From positions 1 through 23,422 of IMG/VR virus record IMGVR_UViG_3300021964_000556: a DNA stretch of 23,422 nucleotides. The stretch is one strand, 5' to 3'. A program made the translations under genes and the position numbers. This document shows, one piece after another, positions 2,856 through 19,018 of this stretch (its first letter is position 1; every line of letters begins with the position of its first letter). The stretch is from a virus. The notes beneath the pieces were generated by a model that saw nothing but the letters and a program-made list of their open reading frames with translations, was not told where the DNA came from and ran no database searches.

Positions 2856-4451
2856 CTATAGGTCGTTAAAAATATCAAGGAATTGTGGATAAACTTTGGC
2901 AAAATTTGTGTTCCTGTGCTTGTCCCGTAGAGATATATCAGTTTGCAAAGATTTAAGAACATACTGTAGATCTTTTGCAAACATGTATTCTTTTACTGAT
3001 TGCCAATCTTCGGTCAGTGAATTATTTTGATTACCGAGCCAAATACAATGCTCGTCGATTAACTTTGCAAATCTGTTTTTATGATGCAATGGCAGAGTCT
3101 GAACGTTATAAAAATCATTGTTCTTTAGCATGATTTCAATTTCAAATTTTGAAATATCGAGGATCTTACTATTGTGCCATTCCTTTTGCAATTTGATAAT
3201 ACTTTCAAGGCTTAAAAAACTTATCACACTGGAAACTCTAAGATCAATCGCTGGGCATTGCGTTTTTATTGTGATAAAATTTTGTGCAACTGTGTGCCAA
3301 TCTGCTCCATGTCTGATATAATTAAATGCACTACCTATGCCATCAAGACTAAAATTTACCCTGACGTTTTCAAATTTATTCCATAAAGCGCAAATGTCAT
3401 TATCTTTGTGTTTAATGGTGGTACCATTGGTGTTGTATTGTAGTTTTGCACTGTTGTTTGCAGTTCGAAGTAGGTGATGCAGTATTTCGTAATGTTCGTC
3501 TTGAATTAAAGGTTCGCCTCCTGCAAATTTTAATTTTTGCACATGGGCACAAGATTTTTTAATGTTTTCTACAACATCTTTCATTTCATTCTTTGTTACC
3601 ATTGCGTCCAAATTGTCATTGTACCCGAAAAGTTTCTTTTCTTCACGTGCAAGTTTACTACTGGATACACCGCTGCAGGTTCTACACATTAAATTACAAA
3701 CATTATTCATTGCAATTTGAGCTTCAACATACTCTAAATTTATAATAGTGCCATCTGCTTTTGTATTGGCTAAAGATTTTGCTATTACATCTTTCCAGTT
3801 TTTGTTATAGGATTGTCTTTGGCTTTCTAAACCTGCATCTTCTATTTCATAACATGCCCTACATGCCTCAATGAGTTCTCCGTTGATCATTTTACGCCTG
3901 GCTGTCCGAAAATTTTCATTGTTATACACATCGTATATGTCTTCTTGTCTAATGTTTCCAAGCACAGACTTATCATCAGTCAAGCAACATAATCTAAGTT
4001 TTGCATGGGTGTCTACGAATAAATGTGTCCAGGCCCTGCCACAAAATGAATCTCGTTTGGTAACACTTTTTGTAAATGGCAAATCGACAATGCTGTATTC
4101 GATATTAGTTGTGTCTTTAGAAAATAATTTTTGTGCTTGTAACAATTCTTCTGCAATATTTTTATTACCTGATATAACATGAACAAAACAATTTGTAATA
4201 TCTAGTTCAGTAAGAAACTTTTGCAGGTATGCAATAGTTTGTCCAAGATTTTCGCCGTAAGAATCATAAACATCATTACAATCTTGCACAATGATTATAC
4301 GTTGGTTTGAAGAATATGCGTCGCGACGATTATCTTTTAAATGATTATACAGTGTATTAATAACACTTTGGGTATAATTTCCTATAAAAAATGGTCTACC
4401 TATAACATGATATAACTCAACAATATCATCAAGAATTTGTTTATTGTGCAT
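2856..4451 (-). CDS. radical SAM protein with N-terminal twitch (half-SPASM) domain
   Basis: A 531-residue protein. The 4Fe-4S/SAM motif CNLMCRTC (Cys 252, 256, 259) lies unusually far in, and the core continues with LKFAGGEPLIQ (about 314-324, the GGEP SAM-binding motif) and YNTNGT. Before the core comes a second cysteine set: FCGRAW (C137), CC at 155-156 and CRAC (C197, C200). This fits a twitch/SPASM-type auxiliary cluster placed before the core, as in the N-twitch radical SAM family. The first 120 residues form an extra alpha/beta domain. The substrate is unknown; such proteins often modify peptides or sugars. The ATG at 4451 is preferred to a TTG one codon earlier. The gene is visibly AT-richer than its neighbours and looks like acquired cargo. 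Confidence 0.85.
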   Translation of the reverse strand: MHNKQILDDIVELYHVIGRPFFIGNYTQSVINTLYNHLKDNRRDAYSSNQRIIIVQDCNDVYDSYGENLGQTIAYLQKFLTELDITNCFVHVISGNKNIAEELLQAQKLFSKDTTNIEYSIVDLPFTKSVTKRDSFCGRAWTHLFVDTHAKLRLCCLTDDKSVLGNIRQEDIYDVYNNENFRTARRKMINGELIEACRACYEIEDAGLESQRQSYNKNWKDVIAKSLANTKADGTIINLEYVEAQIAMNNVCNLMCRTCSGVSSSKLAREEKKLFGYNDNLDAMVTKNEMKDVVENIKKSCAHVQKLKFAGGEPLIQDEHYEILHHLLRTANNSAKLQYNTNGTTIKHKDNDICALWNKFENVRVNFSLDGIGSAFNYIRHGADWHTVAQNFITIKTQCPAIDLRVSSVISFLSLESIIKLQKEWHNSKILDISKFEIEIMLKNNDFYNVQTLPLHHKNRFAKLIDEHCIWLGNQNNSLTEDWQSVKEYMFAKDLQYVLKSLQTDISLRDKHRNTNFAKVYPQFLDIFNDL

Positions 4452-4458
4452 CAAGTAA

Positions 4459-6345: not shown

Positions 6346-6837
6346 TTACACAACGCCGAAGGATATGTTAGCACTTATACCCTCAGTGATCAAATACGGG
6401 TGAAAAAATCCGTCCTTATAGGTTTCGCCAAGCCCTACAATCATTGGTACACCTTCGCAATCGCTTTTGAGTATGCCTACTGGATCGTTGTCTTTCCAAA
6501 ATATTGCTTCCTGTTCGGTTTCAAACTGAAAGCACCATACTTTTTGATCTTCAATGTAAAAGGTTGTGACAGGTGTTATGTTCATTGGTTGGCATCGTAA
6601 ACTGATGCACTGCATTATGGTTTCAAAGTTGCGTTGTTGATTGCGTTGATAGTTCCAGTCAGCATCACTGAGCTCACTGTTACGTCGATAACTTTTTACA
6701 CCAGTTGGTGTTATATCAAATTGTGTTATTACTTCTACACCACTGCTCATAAGATGTCTCTCTTTTGCATCAAACAAACGACGGTAAACTGTTTTGCCGC
6801 CGTCTGGTGATTCATAAATGTATTTAGGCGTCGGCAA
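6346..6837 (-). CDS. unknown 163-aa phage protein
   Basis: The N-terminus PKYIYESPDGGKTVYRRLF is followed by an alpha/beta protein with several aromatic residues and no obvious active site. I do not recognise it. There is no in-frame ATG before residue 30, so translation most likely starts at the TTG at 6837, with GGAA 8 bases upstream; this overlaps the end of the oxygenase gene by 14 bases. An ATT or ATA a few codons further in cannot be excluded. Co-transcription with the oxygenase pair above is likely from the overlap. Confidence 0.65.
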   Translation of the reverse strand: MPTPKYIYESPDGGKTVYRRLFDAKERHLMSSGVEVITQFDITPTGVKSYRRNSELSDADWNYQRNQQRNFETIMQCISLRCQPMNITPVTTFYIEDQKVWCFQFETEQEAIFWKDNDPVGILKSDCEGVPMIVGLGETYKDGFFHPYLITEGISANISFGVV

Positions 6838-7342
6838 CCTTAAGTTTCCATGCTACTGTTACACGAAGTTCTGTGCAATGACGGCTTGGTTCCATACCAG
6901 CATGTAGTATTTTGCTATCAAACATCACTGCTGTGTTCGGCGTTGGGTATTGTTGACGTATTTCCAATCCGTCTTTGTCAAACCACACAGTATTTCCGCC
7001 CCAAACTGGATTCCAGTTTTTATTTGCATAATATAAGACAGTGTAGTATTTGCCTTCTGGAGCATCAACTACATCCTGATGTAGACTACCGCATAAGCCA
7101 GTGGTTTGTCCATTAGCGTACACCCTGCTGAGTTCAAATTTTTTGCCTGCGTCTTTCTCAATTTGTTTTAATAATGTGTCTGTAAACAATGGATCATCGT
7201 CAAGGTCCAGCATCCAAAAGCCTAGCCCACTGCTAACACTGCGCTGTCCAAAATGCCACCCTTTTGCATATCTTGTTTTTACAAACACTTCTTCTGCTTG
7301 CTCTTCACTTAGCCAATTGTCTGCTACATCAATTTCAATCAT
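6824..7342 (-). CDS. 2-oxoglutarate/Fe(II) oxygenase, prolyl-hydroxylase-like
   Basis: A 172-residue protein with the double-stranded beta-helix facial triad: HQD (H88, D90), H147 in SKILHAG, and R160 in LRVTVAWK to bind 2-oxoglutarate. The spacing and the GGNTVWF and YPTPNTAVMF segments match P4H-type hydroxylases. These enzymes use Fe(II), oxygen and 2-oxoglutarate to hydroxylate a target; the phage substrate is unknown and may be a virion or host protein. The ATG at 7342 follows GAGGT by 6 bases and overlaps the stop of the preceding oxygenase gene by 8 bases. The two oxygenases are therefore made from one message. Confidence 0.85.
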   Translation of the reverse strand: MIEIDVADNWLSEEQAEEVFVKTRYAKGWHFGQRSVSSGLGFWMLDLDDDPLFTDTLLKQIEKDAGKKFELSRVYANGQTTGLCGSLHQDVVDAPEGKYYTVLYYANKNWNPVWGGNTVWFDKDGLEIRQQYPTPNTAVMFDSKILHAGMEPSRHCTELRVTVAWKLKVADA

Positions 7343-7973
7343 TTTTTACCTCTACAATTTTACTGTTTGCCGCTACCACGTAACGGTTCTTGCCTTCTGC
7401 GCTGGTGTATGGAAGTTGACTATGGTAGATAAAACTAGGAAACACCAATAACAATCCATCCTTGTTGTTGATGTCAATACTGCTTTTTGTAGTCATCCAC
7501 ATTGTGCCTATGTCAAAGTAACTGCTGTTAAGAGCATTATAGTACCTTGTAAGTCCATTTTTGGTTTCATTGTTGCTGTCGCCAACATCAATGTAGTAGA
7601 TACAACTCCAACTGCTGTTACCATGTATGTGCTTGTCGTGATGCGCACCAGGACGGCAAATGTGGCACCAACTTTCGTGTACTTTTACAGCAAGTTGCAT
7701 GCCTGCGTCCCACTTGCCTTCGTTGGCCTTGCTAGCACTTTTCCAAATACTTTGATTAACAAACTCAGCAAGGGCTATTACGCTTGGATCTTCAAGATTT
7801 AAAAAGTTAAATGCACTTTCGTACAAGCCATGCTTTGCACCGGGCGCAACTCCACTGGTGCTGTTGTTCTGCTCAAGTAGATGGCAAATTTCTTTCAGTC
7901 GGTCTTTGTGCGTGTCAGCATCTTCCCATTCAAACCCATAAAAGGGAACGCTGAATTCATTGATTTCTAACAT
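7335..7973 (-). CDS. putative 2-oxoglutarate/Fe(II) oxygenase (2OG-FeII_Oxy_5-like)
   Basis: A 212-residue protein. HIHGNSSWSCIYYID (H115, H117), GLLLVFPSFIYHSQLPY (H184) and NRYVVAANSKI (R197) reproduce the HxHxxSxxSxxYY ... FPxxxxH ... R layout of this oxygenase family, which is frequent in marine T4-like phages. It probably hydroxylates an unidentified target. The ATG at 7973 has no Shine-Dalgarno. TTAAATAC ends only 4 bases before it, and the terminator of the upstream gene lies just before that. It may thus be leaderless or depend on read-through. It overlaps and likely couples to the second oxygenase gene. Confidence 0.8.
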   Translation of the reverse strand: MLEINEFSVPFYGFEWEDADTHKDRLKEICHLLEQNNSTSGVAPGAKHGLYESAFNFLNLEDPSVIALAEFVNQSIWKSASKANEGKWDAGMQLAVKVHESWCHICRPGAHHDKHIHGNSSWSCIYYIDVGDSNNETKNGLTRYYNALNSSYFDIGTMWMTTKSSIDINNKDGLLLVFPSFIYHSQLPYTSAEGKNRYVVAANSKIVEVKND

Positions 7974-8547: not shown

Positions 8548-9111
8548 CTAGAGACTTTTTTGTAGGCGTTGTAGTAGCATGTAAAGATCACTTTGCATGC
8601 CGCCTTTTTCGCGCATTATATACATTAGACGTTGTACAACTTCAGATTTTTGATTTTTGGTTAATCTATCCCAATAGGAGATTTGTCTGCGTAAGATATA
8701 AAGGTATGCAGGTATGTTGGTAAACTCTCGTTGGAGCATCAACATCATGTAACTCCAATCATTGTTATCAAAGTCGCCACGCCTTAGGGCAAGTAGATTA
8801 CGTCTTAATCTTAGCTCAGGTAAAACAAATGTTTTATCATCCGCAAAAAGGTATCCGTACTTTTCAGGATTAAGTATTAAGGTAATAAGGTTATAAAGAT
8901 CAAGCTGGCTGGTACGGAACCCATCAAAGCCACTGGCCTCCATCATTTTTTTTGCATATCTCATTGCTGTGCCACGATCTTCATTGGCAAAAATTTGTAA
9001 CGCTAGCAAGTGTTCAAACAATCTTGCAGCAATCGCATCCATGCTACGTCCAGAAACATATTCGAGTTTCCTAAACAATCTACTTTCATTGAGTTCGCGT
9101 ATGAATTCCAT
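8548..9111 (-). CDS. unknown helical 187-aa protein
   Basis: An almost wholly helical, Leu/Arg-rich protein (RLFEHLLALQIFANEDRGTA; RLRRNLLALRRGDFDNNDWS). I see no known motif. Its ATG overlaps the stop of the large nucleotidyltransferase-like gene (TAATG), so the two are translationally coupled and probably act in the same process. It could be a small partner or structural subunit; no function is assigned. Downstream lies the late promoter of the small structural gene. Confidence 0.75.
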   Translation of the reverse strand: MEFIRELNESRLFRKLEYVSGRSMDAIAARLFEHLLALQIFANEDRGTAMRYAKKMMEASGFDGFRTSQLDLYNLITLILNPEKYGYLFADDKTFVLPELRLRRNLLALRRGDFDNNDWSYMMLMLQREFTNIPAYLYILRRQISYWDRLTKNQKSEVVQRLMYIMREKGGMQSDLYMLLQRLQKSL

Positions 9112-10997
9112 TACAGTTCCGGATTGTTCTTGGCAAAGTTTGCTTGACTGAATCTCATCCTATCTACAAACTTTAACATTAGGCCACTTGGGAGGCGGAT
9201 CACGTATCCTTCGTGCCCTGGTTCATTGTCAATGCTGGCCGAAATTTCATGTGCATTTTGATCCAGTTGTCGCACAATACCATTTTTAATACTGCTGATC
9301 AACAAGAAACTTTGTACCAATGCGCTAACACCTGCAGAGTTTGCTTGCATCCATTCTAGTATACGAGGTGCTTGTGTTGGCATTTTTTCATTTATCCAAG
9401 GCACAAAGTCTTTGAGTAGGTTATTAAAGTTGCCAGTACGAACCTTGCTGTTGATATACTGCTTGAACAGTTTAGGGAAACCGGTGATTCGTCTGTCACG
9501 CAACTCACTAGGGTTGAACAAACGATCGATTTGTGAACTGTCCACAGCTTTGAGCTTGGACAGCATGCCACTGTCAAGATTAAGCCCTGGTACACTGTCT
9601 TTGATATTTTGATTTGCAACAAACAATTCTGGAACATTTGTCGAAAATGCTCCTTCGATTGGCTCAACATCAGCACCAGGTTCTGCTACTCTACTATGAA
9701 TAACAATGCCAAACTTGGCTTTTTGTATTTGTTTACCAGTATTGCTATTAGCATCTATACTGTATTTCACAGTGTTAGGTTCGAACTCAACTTTTCCATC
9801 CTTTACTACATAAGGTTTTTGAGGATGGAACAATAGGTCAGCTTGTAAATACCCTTTAAGATTTTTTGGTGTTGCTTTTTCTAGTACAGGCCAAAGTTGT
9901 GCATATAACCCTGCTAGTTCTTCTCTACCGCCGCCTTTGCGTTGTGCCAGAACGTCTGCCATTTGCTTGGGACTGGTTGCAAGTCCAACACCACCTGCTT
10001 TTAAGAATCCGCCTTTGTCAGTAAGCACAAACTCGCCATTGGGTTTGCGTCCAAAAATGATTGCTGGCTTGCCGTCCCACTTTACTGTTGCATTGGTCGG
10101 CTTTTGTGATGCAAGTTCGAGTCCTTGAATAGCAGTGTCAATACCACGACTGCCCTGCTCAAACACTAGGTCTTCCGGATGCTCTATGCGCACACCTTCC
10201 TCCAGGATCTCTGATTCAACAATTACTTGATAGCCTTGATTTACAACTCTATCTCTCAGTCTAGCTAACCAGTGTACACTATTTTCATCCTCTGTGTCAA
10301 CCGTTTCTTCAAGAGTGATTCCTTGTTTTGCAGCATAGTCACGGAAGTCTGCTATTTTTTGTTCACGTTTAGGATCATTGGCAAGTGCCTTCATGATTTT
10401 TTCAACACTGCCCAATGGTGTTCTATCTGCGGCACCCGGTATAAACAACTTAGCAACTTCATCTGGATCGTCGGTGACCAGTTCATTGGTAGCTCTGTTT
10501 ACCAATCCAACGTTTTGATTGATCTTGTAGCCCATGCTTTTAGCAATGCTTGCTAACAGTATAGCTCGTGTCACACCTTTGAAGTTGCTGTCGTCATCCT
10601 GTGTCAGGTACCATTTCTGAAAGTCAGGCTTTTGTAAAAACATAAAGTCTGTTTGCACATAACCATTTTCTGGGCGTCCGGCAATAGGTGTTTTAAGATG
10701 TATATTGATGCCAGTTGCAGACACCCAGTCTTTAGGCTCAAGTCCATGACTGGTTGCCCACTGTTCCAGTTTTGCTCTAAACTGACCTTTGTCTACTTTG
10801 TTTGCATCTACTGCTAGATCCAAATCACCTGACGTAGGTGTCTTGCCCGTACTGCCTAGCATGTTGTTTAGTAATGCAAGTCCAGTTAGTTGTTCTAACC
10901 AAGCCACTGTAGGCTTTACATCTGTTTGATTGATGCGAATTGTTGCAGGCTTGCCCTCAGCGTCTTTGAATTCATTACCGCCTTCGAAGAGATTCAT
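9111..10997 (-). CDS. large protein with Pol-beta-like and ATP-ligase-like nucleotidyltransferase signatures
   Basis: A 628-residue protein with two catalytic signatures. Near the N-terminus, GS at 48-49, SGDLDLAVD (D58, D60) and VQTDFMF (D117) match the GS...DxD...D triad of Pol-beta-type nucleotidyltransferases. Further on, TVKWDGKPAII (K306) matches motif I (KxDG) of covalent nucleotidyltransferases such as ATP-dependent DNA ligases. FGIVIH (motif III-like), HEGYVIR (about 595-601, motif IV) and LKFVDR (608-613, motif V) follow in ligase order. The fusion suggests nucleotide addition plus end joining or repair of nucleic acid, but the substrate is unknown. GGAGG 7 bases before the ATG at 10997 decides this start over one six codons upstream; the preceding stop overlaps it (TAATATG). 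Confidence 0.75.
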   Translation of the reverse strand: MNLFEGGNEFKDAEGKPATIRINQTDVKPTVAWLEQLTGLALLNNMLGSTGKTPTSGDLDLAVDANKVDKGQFRAKLEQWATSHGLEPKDWVSATGINIHLKTPIAGRPENGYVQTDFMFLQKPDFQKWYLTQDDDSNFKGVTRAILLASIAKSMGYKINQNVGLVNRATNELVTDDPDEVAKLFIPGAADRTPLGSVEKIMKALANDPKREQKIADFRDYAAKQGITLEETVDTEDENSVHWLARLRDRVVNQGYQVIVESEILEEGVRIEHPEDLVFEQGSRGIDTAIQGLELASQKPTNATVKWDGKPAIIFGRKPNGEFVLTDKGGFLKAGGVGLATSPKQMADVLAQRKGGGREELAGLYAQLWPVLEKATPKNLKGYLQADLLFHPQKPYVVKDGKVEFEPNTVKYSIDANSNTGKQIQKAKFGIVIHSRVAEPGADVEPIEGAFSTNVPELFVANQNIKDSVPGLNLDSGMLSKLKAVDSSQIDRLFNPSELRDRRITGFPKLFKQYINSKVRTGNFNNLLKDFVPWINEKMPTQAPRILEWMQANSAGVSALVQSFLLISSIKNGIVRQLDQNAHEISASIDNEPGHEGYVIRLPSGLMLKFVDRMRFSQANFAKNNPEL

Positions 10998-10998
10998 A

Positions 10999-11718
10999 TT
11001 ATCCCTCCAATGCACGGTAAACGTCGGTGAGTTCCTTGCTTACATCAGCGGGGAAAGGAGTTCCGTTTGGTGAAGTCCATGCACTTCCATCCCACATTGC
11101 AAAGTCTTTTAATTTATATCCTGTTGGAATATAACCACGGCGTGATTTTTTCTGATCTGTGCGTCTGCTGGAACTTGAACTACTGCTTGACGCTTGTCCT
11201 CGCCTTGCACCAATAATAGTTTGTAATAAAGGTTTGAATAATTTTACTATGGTAGGTGCATCATCTTTAGCAGCTATCATTTGCTTTGCAATAGCATTTA
11301 TACGTTGTGTGCTGTTGGTGTCTGTGACTGGATTGTTGCGCAACAAATTAACTTTGATAAAGTCCTGTAATTGTTTTGTGTATTCACCTTGACTTACAAA
11401 TCCCTGCTGTTGTAAGATCTCTTGTGCTCTAGTATCAAAGGGTTGTCCACTGGAGTCTACCCATTGTTTGCCATCATAGGTAGCAGGACCTTTGGTGGTA
11501 GTAATCTTTGTGCCTCTTCTGGGCTTTACCCCACTGCTTGCATTGGCTTGTTTGATGCCATTTACTTTGTCTAACCATTGTTGAGCAGCAATTTTACCAA
11601 GTTTTTCGGCATTCTTTTCAACATCTTGTGCAGACTTGGATGCCTGTCTCTGAGCAATTTCAGCGTCAGTTCTTAAAAAATCTAAAGGTGCTTCAGTTAT
11701 AAATTCACTTGCTTTCAT
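10999..11718 (-). CDS. unknown 239-aa protein with duplicated DG-W motif and Ser tract
   Basis: It begins MKASEFITEA, an opening shared by several marine T4-like virion-associated proteins. Two copies of a YDGxxWxxxxGxPF motif occur: YDGKQWVDSSGQPF (about 81-94) and MWDGSAWTSPNGTPF (about 208-222). They are separated by a helical region and a tract of eight Ser (177-184) followed by basic residues. The duplicated motif looks like a small beta module that might bind a partner or sugar. The ATG at 11718 with GGAGAG upstream is preferred to one 13 codons earlier. It overlaps the preceding gene by 14 bases and couples to the following nucleotidyltransferase gene. Confidence 0.7.
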   Translation of the reverse strand: MKASEFITEAPLDFLRTDAEIAQRQASKSAQDVEKNAEKLGKIAAQQWLDKVNGIKQANASSGVKPRRGTKITTTKGPATYDGKQWVDSSGQPFDTRAQEILQQQGFVSQGEYTKQLQDFIKVNLLRNNPVTDTNSTQRINAIAKQMIAAKDDAPTIVKLFKPLLQTIIGARRGQASSSSSSSSRRTDQKKSRRGYIPTGYKLKDFAMWDGSAWTSPNGTPFPADVSKELTDVYRALEG

Positions 11719-12068: not shown

Positions 12069-13769
12069 ATGGCAAACGAAATAGAACAAATACAGAGTTT
12101 ATTAGAAGAATTTAGGCGACCAGTACCAAACGGTGAAGAATACCAACTCAGACTTGCTGAAGAATTTGAAATCATACTACAGCAACGTTTTACAGATTAC
12201 TTTTTAAAGATACGCAAAATATTGGACCTCAATGATGACATACCACACATGACCCGCGGTAGTGCGGGCAGCAGTTTGGTGTGCTATCTCATGGGTATAA
12301 CGGATGTAGATCCAATAGAGTGGAATATTCCACTGGCACGTTTCTTAAATCCACACAGGGACGACTTGCCCGACGTGGACATTGACGTACCGCATCACAA
12401 ACAAGAACTGGCAATGCAACGGGTGTTTGACACTTGGCCCAACCAAAGTGCTCGTATATCAAACTATGTGCTGTACAGGGAACGTAGTGCAAAAAGAGAA
12501 GCAGCAAAACGGTTAGGTGCAAAAGGACGCTTGCCCAGGGACATTGACTATGAAAAACTAGGAGTGGATGTCAAAGAAGCAACTCGCATAGAACGCAAAC
12601 TGTTAGGCAAGAAACGTTGCATCAGCAAACACTGCGGCGGTGTATTAGTGTTTGACAGGGCACTGCCCAAAAGTCTATTCCGTGATGATAACCTCATACT
12701 GTTAGACAAAAATGAAGTAGAGGACTTGGAACACCTGAAAGTGGACATCTTGGCCAACAGAGGACTCAGCCAACTGTTGGAAATAGATCCCGATACCCCA
12801 CTGCATGAATATCCTAAACAGGATGATGCCACAGCAGACTTGCTGTGCCGCGGTGATGTGCTGGGTGTTACACAAGGTGAAAGTCCTACAATGAAAAGAT
12901 TGTTCCGTGCCCTGCAACCCACAGGCATAGAGGACTGCGTGTTTGCCAGTGCATTGGTGCGTCCTGTTGCAATGGAAGGCAGACGCAAGGCAAGTTGGTT
13001 CCGCGATTGGACGGAAGAAGGCATCAAGAAAAACGCTATTGTGTATGAGGACGATGCTATAGACAAAATTATGAAACTGATTGGCATAAGCCCATACGAA
13101 GCGGACATGTATCGCAGGGCATTTGCCAAAAAGAATGAAGAAAAGATGATGGAGTTCATGGGCAGGTTGGGCGATCATCCTGACAAGTATGACATCTATG
13201 ATCAAATGCAAACACTATCAGGCTTCGGATTATGCAGGGCACACGCTGTAAACCTGGGCAGACTCATATGGGCACTGGCATATCACAAGGTACACAACCC
13301 TAAACAGTTCTGGCGTGCCTGTTTGATGCACTGCCAAGGCAGTTATGCACGTTGGGTGTATCGCAACGAAGCAAAACGTGCTGGCTGGGACTTGCGTGAC
13401 CTAGGCTTTGACAACTGGGTAACTGAAGATCCTGTGCAGAGTTTCTTGGACAAGGGTGCATGGAACAGCCCAGGCTTTTTACCTGGCATGGGCTTGCAAA
13501 AATTATACTTGGATAAGTTTCAGTTTGCTGGCATAGTTGCAAACAGCAGGGTGTTCAAGTGCGATGCTAAAAGTTACATACATTTTATCACACTGGGTGT
13601 AGGTGAAGGCAAGTATGTGGACATAGTTGTGGACAAGCCTGTGAAGTATTCAAATGGCAGTGTGGTAATCGGCGAAGGTAAACTGCATCACAAGGACAAC
13701 AGCGAATACTTAAAGGTAAAACGCAAAAGTGTAAAAGTTATGCCGATTACCGACTACGTTACTTGTTAG
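12069..13769 (+). CDS. family C DNA polymerase (DnaE-like) lacking the PHP domain
   Basis: A 566-residue protein with the family C core in order: MTRGSAGSSLVCYLMGITDV (61-80, palm phosphate-binding GS), RFLNPHRDDLPDVDIDV (91-107; D104 and D106 match the E. coli DnaE catalytic pair), KHCGGVLVF (187-195, matching HAGGVVI), HLKVDILANRGLSQL (222-236; D226 is the third catalytic Asp), GVTQGESPTMKRLF (266-279), ASALVRP (293-299), FAKKNEEKM (352-360) and FGLCRAHAV (386-394, matching FNKSHA). Residues about 486-560 (FAGIVANSR... GEGKLHHKD) resemble the C-terminal OB fold. The N-terminal PHP domain, about 270 residues in bacterial DnaE, is absent; the protein starts just before the palm. The three Asp are intact, so activity is plausible. 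It runs opposite to its neighbours, and its stop overlaps the helicase stop by 11 bases. Confidence 0.9.
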   Translation: MANEIEQIQSLLEEFRRPVPNGEEYQLRLAEEFEIILQQRFTDYFLKIRKILDLNDDIPHMTRGSAGSSLVCYLMGITDVDPIEWNIPLARFLNPHRDDLPDVDIDVPHHKQELAMQRVFDTWPNQSARISNYVLYRERSAKREAAKRLGAKGRLPRDIDYEKLGVDVKEATRIERKLLGKKRCISKHCGGVLVFDRALPKSLFRDDNLILLDKNEVEDLEHLKVDILANRGLSQLLEIDPDTPLHEYPKQDDATADLLCRGDVLGVTQGESPTMKRLFRALQPTGIEDCVFASALVRPVAMEGRRKASWFRDWTEEGIKKNAIVYEDDAIDKIMKLIGISPYEADMYRRAFAKKNEEKMMEFMGRLGDHPDKYDIYDQMQTLSGFGLCRAHAVNLGRLIWALAYHKVHNPKQFWRACLMHCQGSYARWVYRNEAKRAGWDLRDLGFDNWVTEDPVQSFLDKGAWNSPGFLPGMGLQKLYLDKFQFAGIVANSRVFKCDAKSYIHFITLGVGEGKYVDIVVDKPVKYSNGSVVIGEGKLHHKDNSEYLKVKRKSVKVMPITDYVTC

Positions 13770-15165
13770 CCTTGAGTCCTGCTAGCATCTGCTTGAGCTT
13801 GGTGCTTTCAACATCTGCACGGATCTTGCCTGGTTCATCTTCAACTGCGGCACTGTCCTCTTCGCCAGTCATAGTGCTTTTGCTCTTGATGCTTTCATAG
13901 ATACTACTGCTACGCTTCTTGAACTCTTGGTAATCTTGATCTTCACCTAAGTCACGGATACGCAGACTTTCCATGTCAAACTCCAAGTCTACCTTTTGCC
14001 CCACACCACTACTTGAACGTGTCTTCATTGCTTGTATCTGATATCGCCCACGCTCACGCATTGCTCTACTTGTAAAGATACCAAATACGTTGTCAGCAGT
14101 GTTGATCTTACTGATACCACCTGCAATATGGCTGTGATCAAACTCAATCTCTTCCACAGCCGATCTGTTCAACTGCGATGCTGTTACAAACAGTATGTTC
14201 ATTTCCCTAGCCAAGTTGCGTAGTTCTTCTGAAACATACTTGTCTTTTACAAACTGATCATTTGGGCTTACCTTTGCACTCACCGGCATCAACAAGTCCA
14301 AGTAGTCAACACACATAAAGTCAATACCGCGTCCAGTTTTAATTTGTAACTCTTTGCAGAATGCACGAACATCATTCACGTTGCTCTGTGCTGGCATGTA
14401 TTTGATCTGCAGGTTACCCGCTTTCTTCTTCATCATCTTGACTTTCATTTCCACAGTGTCAAGATCCTTAAACAGTTGCTTTGCGGCTGTGTTAGTCAGC
14501 ATACTGTCAATACGCATAGCAGTCAAGCCTTCACTAAGTTCTAGCGTAATGTACGCACCGTTAAGTCCTGCTTCCAACCAGTTTACAGCCAAGTTCTGCA
14601 TAAACAAACTCTTACCCGAACCTGATCCACCTGCAAAGATCTGTAATTCGCCTCTGTTGAATCCTCCATACAGCAGTTTGTCCAGTGCAGGCCAACCTGT
14701 TGAATTCTGTCCGTTGTTGTCTTTGAGTGCCGCAAGTCTGCCACGTGGATCCTCAAAATAGTCTGTACCTAAGTCCTTTGTTAAACTAATCTGTACAGCA
14801 TCCTTGATCAGTTTTTCTACAGGATCATATGTGCCTTTCTCCAGCAAGTCAGCACTCTTGAGGATAGCACGTTCTAGTTCTTTGCGTCGAGTAAATCCTT
14901 CGAACTCCTGCAAACACCAGTCTAGGTGTCCTTCATTGAGCTCTGGTATTTCTTGCAGTGTAACACCTGTAACTGCTTTTATCTGTGCCCTGTCTGGTAG
15001 CGTTTTGTGTTCGTTGCTGTGTTCATAGATGAACTGTGCAGTTTCTCTCAAGTGCCTGTCAAAGTTTTCACTGTTGAATATGTTCTGCACACGCAGGAAG
15101 CTCTGTGCATCCTGCATCATGATTTCTAAGAATAGTTGTTGTACTTCAGGTGAGTAATCTTTCAT
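13759..15165 (-). CDS. replicative DNA helicase, T4 gp41 / DnaB type
   Basis: A 468-residue protein. An N-terminal helical domain (1-130) is followed by the RecA-like SF4 core: Walker A GGSGSGKS (179-186, K185), ITLELSE (E209 region), Walker B DFMCVDYLDLL (282-292, D287), TASQLNR (328-334) and KTRSSSGVG (381-389, the arginine-finger/loop region of DnaB-type helicases). It would form a hexamer unwinding DNA 5' to 3' at the fork with the primase. Its ATG overlaps the primase stop (ATGA). The C-terminal tail (405-468) is charged and probably mobile. Its stop meets the polymerase gene end to end. Confidence 0.95.
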   Translation of the reverse strand: MKDYSPEVQQLFLEIMMQDAQSFLRVQNIFNSENFDRHLRETAQFIYEHSNEHKTLPDRAQIKAVTGVTLQEIPELNEGHLDWCLQEFEGFTRRKELERAILKSADLLEKGTYDPVEKLIKDAVQISLTKDLGTDYFEDPRGRLAALKDNNGQNSTGWPALDKLLYGGFNRGELQIFAGGSGSGKSLFMQNLAVNWLEAGLNGAYITLELSEGLTAMRIDSMLTNTAAKQLFKDLDTVEMKVKMMKKKAGNLQIKYMPAQSNVNDVRAFCKELQIKTGRGIDFMCVDYLDLLMPVSAKVSPNDQFVKDKYVSEELRNLAREMNILFVTASQLNRSAVEEIEFDHSHIAGGISKINTADNVFGIFTSRAMRERGRYQIQAMKTRSSSGVGQKVDLEFDMESLRIRDLGEDQDYQEFKKRSSSIYESIKSKSTMTGEEDSAAVEDEPGKIRADVESTKLKQMLAGLKANK

Positions 15166-16133
15166 TTAACTTTTGCTTTTAGTTTTTTGCGAGCCATTTC
15201 AATTTTTATCTTGCCGCTTACACGGCTTTCCATTATCATCAGCAGTGTAGTTATCTCTCCGTAACGACAAACAGCATCATTGACGTCTTTTATGTCCGCT
15301 GGCCAGTCAGGTATACTTACACTATAGTTGTATTCCAGTGCGCTGTCAATTAATTTGAGTCCAGCCTCATCCTGGTCGGGCACCACAACAATTTCTTTTT
15401 CTAAACTGCGTATAAGTCTGCTTTGTGCTTCATTGATGTTGTTGTGCAGTACGGCCAAGCCGTTGATACACAGTGCGTCAATCACACCCTCAACCACAAT
15501 AGCATATTGCCAATCAGGCTGTTGCAGGTCTGTACCAAACACATAGCCTGGTTGTATATCTTGGATGTATTTGGGTATCCTGCCATCAATGTATCGGGTA
15601 GCATGCCCTACTATGGTGTTGTTGTGTGTAAAGGGTATTATAAATCCAACACGAGCACTGTGTTCCACGTCCTGTGTTAGATACGGATAGTCTTGGGGCA
15701 AACACCTATCCTCAACGTAGTTCCACAGCACTGTGTCTTTTTCAATCTTGTATGCGCGGCTGGGCAGTTCACGCTCTTCAAACTCAATGTTCATCAAACG
15801 TTGTTGGATCTGTTGGCGCTCCAGTGCAAGTCCCTCGATGCTACGATGACGCAGACTTTCAAGATTGATGCGTTCTATTTCTTCTTGTGGTACGTTGAAC
15901 CATCCCAGTAAACGTTTGGCTTTGAAACTGAGATTGCGTCCCAACATAAAACTTGCAGTGAATCCACAGTTAAAGCAGTGGTAGCTCCACGAGTCTTCGT
16001 TGAACTTGATTCCGCCACGTCCACGCTTGTCCTGACTTTCGCCATTGTGTACGCAACAGGGTGCATTGAAACTTATCCATCCGCCGGATGTCTGTTTGCG
16101 TTTTGCTGGCAAGTAAGTTAGAAGATCAATCAT
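15162..16133 (-). CDS. DNA primase, T4 gp61-type with zinc finger and Toprim
   Basis: A 323-residue protein. The zinc ribbon is formed by CCVH (C26, C27, H29) and CFNC (C53, C56). A middle region follows, then the Toprim catalytic motifs VVEGVIDAL (E215, D219) and VVPDQDEAG (D253, D255). This order is that of DnaG/gp61 primases, which make RNA primers on the lagging strand and bind the helicase. It overlaps its neighbours on both sides by four bases (ATGA with the SGNH gene and with the helicase), so the primase and helicase are made in coupled amounts. The N-terminus MIDLLTYLP lacks any extension. Confidence 0.95.
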   Translation of the reverse strand: MIDLLTYLPAKRKQTSGGWISFNAPCCVHNGESQDKRGRGGIKFNEDSWSYHCFNCGFTASFMLGRNLSFKAKRLLGWFNVPQEEIERINLESLRHRSIEGLALERQQIQQRLMNIEFEERELPSRAYKIEKDTVLWNYVEDRCLPQDYPYLTQDVEHSARVGFIIPFTHNNTIVGHATRYIDGRIPKYIQDIQPGYVFGTDLQQPDWQYAIVVEGVIDALCINGLAVLHNNINEAQSRLIRSLEKEIVVVPDQDEAGLKLIDSALEYNYSVSIPDWPADIKDVNDAVCRYGEITTLLMIMESRVSGKIKIEMARKKLKAKVK

Positions 16134-16852
16134 TCTATAAGTTTAACACGGTCTATGTATTCAATCAACCTTTGTGCTATTTTTTGATGGCCATTTTCGT
16201 TTGGGTGTCGTTTTGGACAAAAATCGTCTGCACTTAAACATTCGTGTAAGTTAAATCCGCAATTATTTTTTACATTGCTTCCTAGATTTTTTAGCATACC
16301 GTGCATGTTTGTCATCATATTTACAGTTGGCACGTTAAAACTGTTAAAGTAACCAATGGTTTGATCAAGGTTAAACCTATCATACTCCTCATGAGAAGAA
16401 TTATTGACCCACAACCTATGCATTTCGTGCCATTGAGTATTCTGATTGTCGTCAAAAGGTAACCAAGTATTATGATAGAACATGTTCCAAGGAGGATCTG
16501 GTCGTTCAGGATAGTAGTTACTGTATTCGTCGATAGGATTGGCTCGATCAGCAACAAAAAAACTGTATCTTGATGGATTGGTGTATCCAACCATAAAAAG
16601 ACATTCACTAAGATCTATGTTTTCTTTTATCCACCATGCAGCATACCGCATTGCTTCAAGGCTTGCGCCTGGAAATGCGGTATTGATAAATTCCATATTA
16701 TAATGCTTTGCAATGATCCCTGCATAACAATGACTATTTCTGTAGTCTTCATTTGAGGAATCACAACAATGCGTATTTAATGGTAGGGTTGGATCCAGTA
16801 ATTCGTCCCCATAGGTAAAACTGCATCCAAACGCAACAAGTTTTTTTAACAT
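16130..16852 (-). CDS. SGNH/GDSL-family hydrolase-like protein
   Basis: A 240-residue protein. Block I is FGCSFTYGDEL (S11 as nucleophile), block II-like GASLEAMRY follows, and the C-terminal block is KRHPNENGHQKIA (H216, H222). SGNH enzymes cleave esters on sugars or lipids; in phages they may deacetylate surface polysaccharide. The usual DxxH Asp is not in place before H216 (Pro at that position, with D209 and D210 nearby), so activity is uncertain. It starts directly after the stop of the fibre-like gene (TAGATG) and overlaps the primase start, linking a surface-type protein to the replication operon. Confidence 0.8.
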   Translation of the reverse strand: MLKKLVAFGCSFTYGDELLDPTLPLNTHCCDSSNEDYRNSHCYAGIIAKHYNMEFINTAFPGASLEAMRYAAWWIKENIDLSECLFMVGYTNPSRYSFFVADRANPIDEYSNYYPERPDPPWNMFYHNTWLPFDDNQNTQWHEMHRLWVNNSSHEEYDRFNLDQTIGYFNSFNVPTVNMMTNMHGMLKNLGSNVKNNCGFNLHECLSADDFCPKRHPNENGHQKIAQRLIEYIDRVKLIE

Positions 16853-17860: not shown

Positions 17861-17868
17861 CTATTTAT
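17861..17868 (-). promoter_or_regulatory. T4-type late promoter candidate for the fibre-like gene
   Basis: ATAAATAG on the minus strand, 21 bases before the ATG at 17839 and followed by CGGAG, has the same spacing as the other late sites. It overlaps the start codon of the divergent plus-strand gene. Confidence 0.6.
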
Positions 17869-18244
17869 GGGACCAGAAGTATTTGAAAAATTAGCAGAAC
17901 GTTATCCTTTTATAACCTTCTGCACCTATGCTAGCAACGAGTATGTTGGAGTAGTGCAGAATCAGGATGACATTGTAACCACCATCTACGACTTTGGTGC
18001 AATACAGAGTCAGGAACTCAAAGAACTGTTCCTAGATCTAGCAAACACTTGGTGGTGGGAAAGCAACAGAAGCATACCAATCAACATATTTCTAAAAAAA
18101 GAATGGGATCCATTCAAGCCATATCTAAAAACTTTTATCAATAAAGATTTAGAAATACTCCATGGGCCCTGCACAAGCCTTGCTGAACTTAGCAGAAAAA
18201 AGACCAAGCGGAAAAGTATCACTCTTGTACGGAGGGTGGATTAG
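17867..18244 (+). CDS. unknown 125-aa protein, plus strand
   Basis: A soluble alpha/beta protein starting MGPEVFEKLAERYPFITFCT, with a beta region (YVGVVQNQDDIVTTIYDFGA), a Trp-rich helix (LANTWWWESNRS) and a basic tail (SRKKTKRKSITLVRRVD). The intact frame and ordered composition argue that it is real. I do not recognise a family; the basic tail could contact nucleic acid. It is one of only two plus-strand genes here. It starts 27 bases from the divergent fibre-like gene without a Shine-Dalgarno, and its last 26 bases overlap the end of the convergent 78-aa gene. Confidence 0.75.
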   Translation: MGPEVFEKLAERYPFITFCTYASNEYVGVVQNQDDIVTTIYDFGAIQSQELKELFLDLANTWWWESNRSIPINIFLKKEWDPFKPYLKTFINKDLEILHGPCTSLAELSRKKTKRKSITLVRRVD

Positions 18245-18455
18245 CAATCTGCCACTTTAAGAACTCCAGATTCTGATGATCCCATTTTAGTGCAAATATT
18301 GTAAAGTCTTGTTCGGTCATTGCCACACAATGGTACTTGTCAAGTTGTGTATACACAATAGGAAGCCTATCCAGTTTGTCTGTGATACTACGCCAAGCAT
18401 AACCTCTGGTCATACTGTTACTACCGCCAATGAACGGCCAGGCTACATATTGCAT
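18219..18455 (-). CDS. unknown 78-aa protein
   Basis: A small protein: MQYVAWPFIGGSNSMTRGYA is followed by YTQLDKYHCVAMTEQDFTIF and ends FLKWQIANPPSVQE. I do not recognise it. It overlaps the end of the miniature DnaE-like gene by 13 bases in another frame, which suggests translational coupling and possibly a joint function. It does not resemble the region of DnaE that would follow, so it is not a frameshifted continuation. The 3' end overlaps the convergent plus-strand gene by 26 bases. Confidence 0.65.
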   Translation of the reverse strand: MQYVAWPFIGGSNSMTRGYAWRSITDKLDRLPIVYTQLDKYHCVAMTEQDFTIFALKWDHQNLEFLKWQIANPPSVQE

Positions 18456-19018
18456 TGTGCTTGTTCTAGTAGATTTATATGCAATGCGATAAGTTTTGCG
18501 TAGCCAAGACTATGAGATTTTTTGAACACAAATCCTCTACTGTCGTTGCCATCCCACACACTAGCAAACACAGTCTCCCACGGCTGACGCTGTAGATGTG
18601 CCTTGCCTGGGCGTATGATAGCAATAAAAGCCGCCATCCTGGGTATGCTATCAGGCCGCATTGCACACACCAAATCATGATAGTTGCTGATGTGTACTAC
18701 TTGTTCGCAGAATGCTTGGTCCAACAGTAACTTCCAGTCAGGCTCCTTGGCTAACATAGCATCATAATGAGCTTGGTCACGCACTAGTGTGTACACGCTT
18801 TGATTCAGGAAGTCAATTTTAAAGTATCCACGTTGTTCTGCCTCACGATAGTCAAGACTGGCACAACCTTGTATTGGGTCAACTGGCACCGGTGTAACAT
18901 ATACACCTGAGTTATGTTTGCGTACTTCGCCGTTGTTTTCCTGTCGTGCTGGTATGTGTTTGATTAACTCCAGCACGTTGTTTCTATCCGCAAAATCTAT
19001 GTCAACATCTGCACTCAT
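18443..19018 (-). CDS. miniature DnaE-like protein: family C catalytic motifs in 191 residues
   Basis: The motifs of a family C polymerase appear in the right order in a very short protein. ADVDIDFADR (3-12) matches the PDxDxDF catalytic pair (D6, D8). KHNSGVYVTP (34-43) matches HAGGVVIAP. YFKIDFLNQSVYTLV (65-79) matches the third catalytic Asp (D69). AAFIAIIRPGKAHL (129-142) matches the ALxRPG segment, and FVFKKSHSLGYAKLIAL (163-179) matches FNKSHAxAY. The palm GS motif, the PHP domain, the rest of the fingers and the OB fold are missing. A stop codon four codons before the ATG shows that the frame truly begins here. Catalysis alone seems unlikely without the GS segment; a partner, primer-binding or regulatory role is possible. 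It overlaps both neighbours. Confidence 0.75.
   Translation of the reverse strand: MSADVDIDFADRNNVLELIKHIPARQENNGEVRKHNSGVYVTPVPVDPIQGCASLDYREAEQRGYFKIDFLNQSVYTLVRDQAHYDAMLAKEPDWKLLLDQAFCEQVVHISNYHDLVCAMRPDSIPRMAAFIAIIRPGKAHLQRQPWETVFASVWDGNDSRGFVFKKSHSLGYAKLIALHINLLEQAQCNM

Follow-up and report, generated by a model that had tools for sequence, protein, structure and literature searches.

The window analysed here, i.e., the whole 23,422-nt IMG/VR virus record IMGVR_UViG_3300021964_000556, encodes a 191-aa protein that is most probably the C-terminal subunit of a minimal two-chain nucleotidyltransferase of family C (DnaE-like), whose palm would be built from two separately encoded proteins. 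This split enzyme would perhaps, by a narrow preference, be active as a DNA polymerase. The 191-aa protein and its homologues are called C-halves below, and the proteins that would complete the palm are called N-halves.

A split minimal Pol III alpha was already described from sequence, without experiments, in group 2.2 jumbo phages by Iyer et al. 2021 (PMC7824862), an independent sequence study that reached the same split; the protein is thus not the new kind of object that the sequence-only reading had proposed. The pair is exemplified by F403_gp373/gp411 of RaK2 (phrog_11127 and phrog_11778). As in those jumbo phages, the window has a stand-alone C-chain that starts at DxD and carries the Mg-binding Asp and the fingers motifs. 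Whereas split-enzyme phages are said in the same study to have no other Pol III parts, the aquatic clade to which the window belongs also has an intact 566-aa single-chain family C polymerase. The fixed split point, the residue invariance, the near-complete co-occurrence of the halves and their conserved replication neighbourhoods are likewise new with respect to PMC7824862. A literature search found no experimental study of the split phage enzyme.

The 191-aa protein and its family

The 191-aa ORF starts with ATG, four codons downstream of an in-frame stop (stop-to-stop frame of 195 aa), in agreement with the earlier remark that the protein begins at the first Asp cluster. All five family C motifs that had been reported within these 191 residues were located in order: ADVDIDF (3–9), KHNSGVYV (34–41), YFKIDFL (65–71), IIRPG (134–138) and FKKSHSLGYA (165–174). 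The protein matches phrog_11778 ('DNA polymerase') with an E-value of 8.5e-60. Its relatives were found by tblastn in 67 phage records, with roughly 30–42% identity, nearly all of them from large myophages such as RaK2, PA5oct, 121Q, GAP32 and Atu_ph07, and they are encoded on 508 IMG/VR stretches. The median dN/dS among close relatives is 0.06, i.e., the gene is under strong selection. Given this conserved family, its wide distribution and this selection, the family C motifs of the ORF are not due to chance.

The C-half is hardly recognizable by single-protein searches. A Pfam scan of the window protein alone gave zero matches, and members of the family scanned one by one gave weak matches to DNA_pol3_finger in 12 of 34 cases (best E 0.02). 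Compared alone with DnaE by sequence, the C-half is matched weakly (hmmsearch E 0.012; hhalign E 0.003). Profile, structure and paired analyses were therefore needed.

Features of the window that bear on the split enzyme
Feature	Position	Strand	Basis
C-half gene, 191 aa, phrog_11778	18443..19018	-	PHROG match, homologues, model, profile alignment
Codons of D4-V5-D6 (E. coli DnaE D401-F402-D403)	19001..19009	-	hhalign with concatenated N+C profile; D4 and D6 invariant (41/41)
Codons of K67-I68-D69 (DnaE K553-F554-D555)	18812..18820	-	motif spacing; K67 and D69 invariant (41/41)
Small phrog_11637 gene, function not assigned, convergent with the C-half gene	17867..18244	+	PHROG match; same layout in related phages examined
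DNA primase (Toprim), in the C-half replication neighbourhood	15162..16133	-	domain and PHROG matches
DnaB-like replicative helicase, in the C-half neighbourhood	13759..15165	-	domain and PHROG matches
Single-chain family C polymerase, 566 aa	12069..13769	+	GS, DxD, KHxGG, KxD and RP motifs all present

Conservation was examined in 41 C-half homologues, all less than 90% identical. D4, D6, K67, D69, H35, G38, P45, W95, P122, R136, P137, K139 and H169 are invariant in all 41, and the KKSH motif is invariant or nearly so. The catalytic Asp had been proposed to be D6, D8 and D69. Alignment to P400-D401-F-D403-V-D405 of E. coli DnaE supports D6 and D69 and replaces D8, which corresponds to D405, with D4 as the third residue. 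D8 is nevertheless kept in 40 of the 41 homologues. The Asp conservation that was to be checked was thus found, and the metal-binding positions are strongly selected, as had been suggested for the acidic residues.

The C-half resembles bacterial DnaE and PolC in its collinear palm and fingers motifs, its catalytic Asp positions and its fold match. The motifs DxD, KH, KxD, RP and KSH are at residues 401, 510, 553, 637 and 756 in E. coli DnaE versus 4, 34, 67, 134 and 165 in the 191-aa protein. The KH-to-KxD and KxD-to-RP spacings are similar in the two proteins, whereas the DxD-to-KH stretch (thumb region) drops from about 110 to 31 residues and the RP-to-KSH stretch (fingers) from about 119 to 31. 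Motif spacing thus shows that the thumb region and the fingers of the C-half are shortened. The absence of a GS segment, a PHP domain and an OB fold from the chain, as originally read, holds: the whole chain aligns to palm and fingers, there is no clamp-binding region either, and the GS nucleotide-binding motif is carried by the separate N-half. Unlike DnaE/PolC, the phage pair lacks the PHP, OB, clamp-binding and tau-binding parts, and its palm is divided over two proteins at a point that separates the GS element from the DxD element.

The N-half and the split point

The N-half is a stand-alone phrog_11127 protein of about 160–210 aa that ends about 8 residues before the position of DnaE D401. 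Pfam DNA_pol3_alpha was matched by 35 of 35 N-halves around the GS segment, and GxGRGS is invariant in 41 N-halves. On E. coli DnaE, the match of the N-half profile extends to residue 392–393. When the N- and C-halves of 14 phages were concatenated into one profile, it aligned collinearly with E. coli DnaE 208–419 (hhalign E 8.1e-10), with the break at 393/394, D4 facing D401 and D6 facing D403; the N-half contributes most of this match, and the alignment carries on through DxD. N-halves terminate at EFLK/R or no more than a few residues beyond it; C-halves begin at DxD or a few residues before it. No fused N+C version was present among the ORFs collected, in which both profiles were matched only by full DnaE-type proteins.

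Two other origins of the split were considered. A frameshift, an intron or an assembly break was rejected, as the halves lie 11–224 kb apart and the split point is constant in 14 genomes. A split intein was rejected by inspection: N-halves stop near EFLK/R, and the residues ahead of DxD in C-halves bear no resemblance to an intein.

Predicted structures

AlphaFold2 models of the two halves have mean pLDDT values of 87 (N-half) and 85 (C-half). Foldseek searches with either model gave no significant E-value, and VIA-align was used as a second look for the C-half. Its best ten rows were all family C polymerases, with moderate Z scores (9.4–4.6) and collinear ranges (Taq 464–841, E. coli DnaE 404–781). 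This result bears out the family C palm and fingers fold that was to be looked for in the 191-aa model, at a moderate Z of up to 9.4. The N-half model maps to E. coli DnaE 278–393 (Z about 10–11) and scores 12.2 against 5lew, another bacterial Pol III alpha. Although these scores are moderate, the two models tile the same DnaE template end to end. Together with the motifs and the profile alignment, the fold match supports the origin of the protein in a family C polymerase core. In the C-half modelled alone, only residues 1–10, which hold the DxD strand, fall below a pLDDT of 50, as would be expected if this strand needs the other chain.

Co-occurrence of the two halves

All 14 full-length genomes with a C-half that were checked (13 cultured phages, including RaK2, PA5oct and Atu_ph07, plus the 328-kb G001, an IMG/VR record related to the window) also encode an N-half; the two genes are separated by as little as about 11 kb in Slicko01 and as much as about 224 kb in Phosso. 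Conversely, the C-half was found on all eight tested N-half contigs of at least 200 kb and on one of 137 kb, and the six N-half contigs without it are fragments of 90–136 kb. Among the accessions listed, 59 of 60 C-half phages are included in the 60 N-half ones; the single exception is a partial record of 109 kb. The divergences of the two halves are correlated (r 0.92), weak evidence from a mirror-tree with no control gene, as shared phage ancestry alone may be its source. The need for a partner, which had been one of the earlier suggestions, is thus probable, the GS element being on a separate protein in 14 of 14 genomes. The window record, a 23-kb fragment, has only the C-half. Pairing in its own genome is hence inferred from G001, which has both halves and whose C-half is 72% identical to that of the window.

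The 14 genomes with both halves also encode a family B polymerase. Overall, this polymerase was found in each of 15 full-length phage genomes searched for it, G001 among them, and in six further IMG/VR records; no match to it was obtained within the 23-kb window fragment.

The 566-aa single-chain polymerase

The 566-aa polymerase belongs, together with a relative encoded by LR756508.1 and with phrog_405, to the single-chain phage DnaE-like polymerases. These share a family C core and the same motifs with the split enzyme, and the 566-aa protein also resembles it in having no PHP domain. They differ from it in that GS and DxD are on one chain and in that their thumb and fingers are longer. Relatives of the 566-aa protein are found in the aquatic clade, with 87–100% identity in G001–G003 and G005–G008 and 57–61% in G009 and G010. 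It is absent from the 13 cultured split-enzyme phages (RaK2, Atu_ph07, PA5oct and ten further complete genomes), in which weak matches to it correspond to the N-half only. Among the split-enzyme phages examined, it is therefore limited to the aquatic clade including the window, and it is a separate enzyme, not a general partner of the C-half. LR756508.1 has its relative of the 566-aa polymerase without either split half.

The match between the 566-aa protein and a 171-aa phrog_11127 protein covers the GS segment only, at the extreme end of the latter. BLASTP detected no significant similarity between the 191-aa and 566-aa proteins; an origin of the C-half as a recent duplicate of the 566-aa gene is thus unsupported. 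In G001, G009 and G010, the 566-aa polymerase, the split enzyme and the family B polymerase are found together. The coexistence of the first two in these genomes appears not to have been described before.

Gene neighbourhoods

The N-half and C-half genes both lie in replication neighbourhoods. The neighbours of the C-half, in the window as in most of the related phages that were examined, are phrog_11637, a structural gene, the primase and the DnaB-like helicase. XacN1 is an exception, with one gene between the C-half and phrog_11637 and a partly different neighbourhood. The N-half is near a GroES-like gene and a clamp loader in RaK2, PA5oct, G001, G009 and G010.

Several other observations concern these regions. 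The phrog_11637 gene, which nearly all of the related phages examined have next to their C-half, is a possible functional associate. A 78-aa ORF (18219–18455, minus strand) overlaps the end of the C-half gene; it has no Pfam match, and similar ORFs were found only in near relatives (15 matches among the collected ORFs). In diverse phages, the GroES-like co-chaperonin gene lies between the N-half and clamp loader genes (L213:6210–6593, L104:5382–5708). A GDSL lipase/acylhydrolase-like protein (16130–16852, minus strand; PF00657, E 2.6e-5) is encoded within the cluster of the primase and structural genes.

The minus strand of the window also encodes a radical SAM and SPASM protein (2856–4454; PF04055, PF13186), and a similar Cys-motif protein adjoins the clamp loader in G001 (L213:4544–6235). 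On the same strand are two adjacent 2OG-Fe(II) oxygenase-like genes (6824–7973; PF13640, PF13759) and a DUF6267 protein (9111–11015; E 9.8e-42) with a KWDG stretch that we take to be reminiscent of nucleotidyltransferase ligase motif I.

A model of the split enzyme and its alternatives

The split enzyme may be viewed as follows. The N-half would supply the part of the palm that carries the invariant GxGRGS loop; in DnaE, this loop holds the incoming nucleotide by its triphosphate. The C-half would supply the remaining palm, with the carboxylates of D4, D6 and D69 holding two Mg ions and with K67, as well as a shortened fingers module (R136-P137, K166/K167 and H169). The two chains would associate non-covalently where the GS helix is severed from the DxD strand, forming one active site. 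Beside a family B replicase, the enzyme would probably serve as an auxiliary DNA polymerase that makes short stretches (in repair, in filling gaps or in extending primers), as the PHP, OB, clamp-binding and most thumb parts are missing, and its exact job is speculative. Processive template-directed synthesis is doubtful since the thumb is nearly absent.

The same reduction lends some weight to a less probable reading, according to which the two chains rebuild the active site for a reaction that is not templated (terminal transfer, a priming or oligonucleotide reaction, or protein nucleotidylation): the thumb is almost gone, so are most of the fingers, and these phages already have a complete family B replicase. 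However, RP and KKSH, which belong to the fingers and are linked with family C polymerases, vary little or not at all, and the genes of the halves lie beside those for helicase, primase and clamp loader. It is still more improbable that the two chains have a purely structural role in the replisome, being catalytically dead and keeping the acidic residues just to bind metal or DNA. The very reduced domain set would fit this role, but the whole catalytic constellation over the two genes (GxGRGS, D4, D6, K67 and D69) is invariant, and dead polymerases usually lose some catalytic residues.

Readings that dispense with the N-half fare worse. The 191-aa protein had been suggested as a partner of the 566-aa polymerase, whose gene is less than 7 kb away in the window and co-occurs with it in the clade. 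An accessory role of this kind is very unlikely, given that the 13 cultured C-half phages have no 566-aa protein, that this protein holds the full motif set itself and that the GS segment is on phrog_11127. Hardly any likelihood is left for a minimal nucleotidyltransferase acting alone or as a homo-oligomer, the other role that had been envisaged: all metal-binding positions are kept, but the chain has no GS nucleotide-binding element, its DxD strand is poorly ordered when modelled alone, and it is almost always inherited with a protein that bears just that element.

Significance

Under the two-chain model, there is a little less than an even chance that an active site cut between its nucleotide-binding and metal-binding elements reassembles in active form, and that some aquatic phages have three DNA polymerases (split, family B and single-chain family C), two of them being stripped-down bacterial-type replicases. 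If active, the split enzyme would be, to our knowledge, the smallest family C polymerase, and its active site, common to two proteins, would allow a direct test of the minimal DnaE parts for catalysis. As the split pair occurs in cultured phages of laboratory hosts, such as E. coli K-12 MG1655 for Sharanji and P. aeruginosa PAO1 for Paride and Cassandra, it is open to testing. The enzyme is also relevant to two wider questions: whether minimal versions of this kind are models for the ancestral bacterial replicase, as Iyer et al. 2021 (PMC7824862) proposed, and why phages that have a family B replicase retain a bacterial-type core as well.
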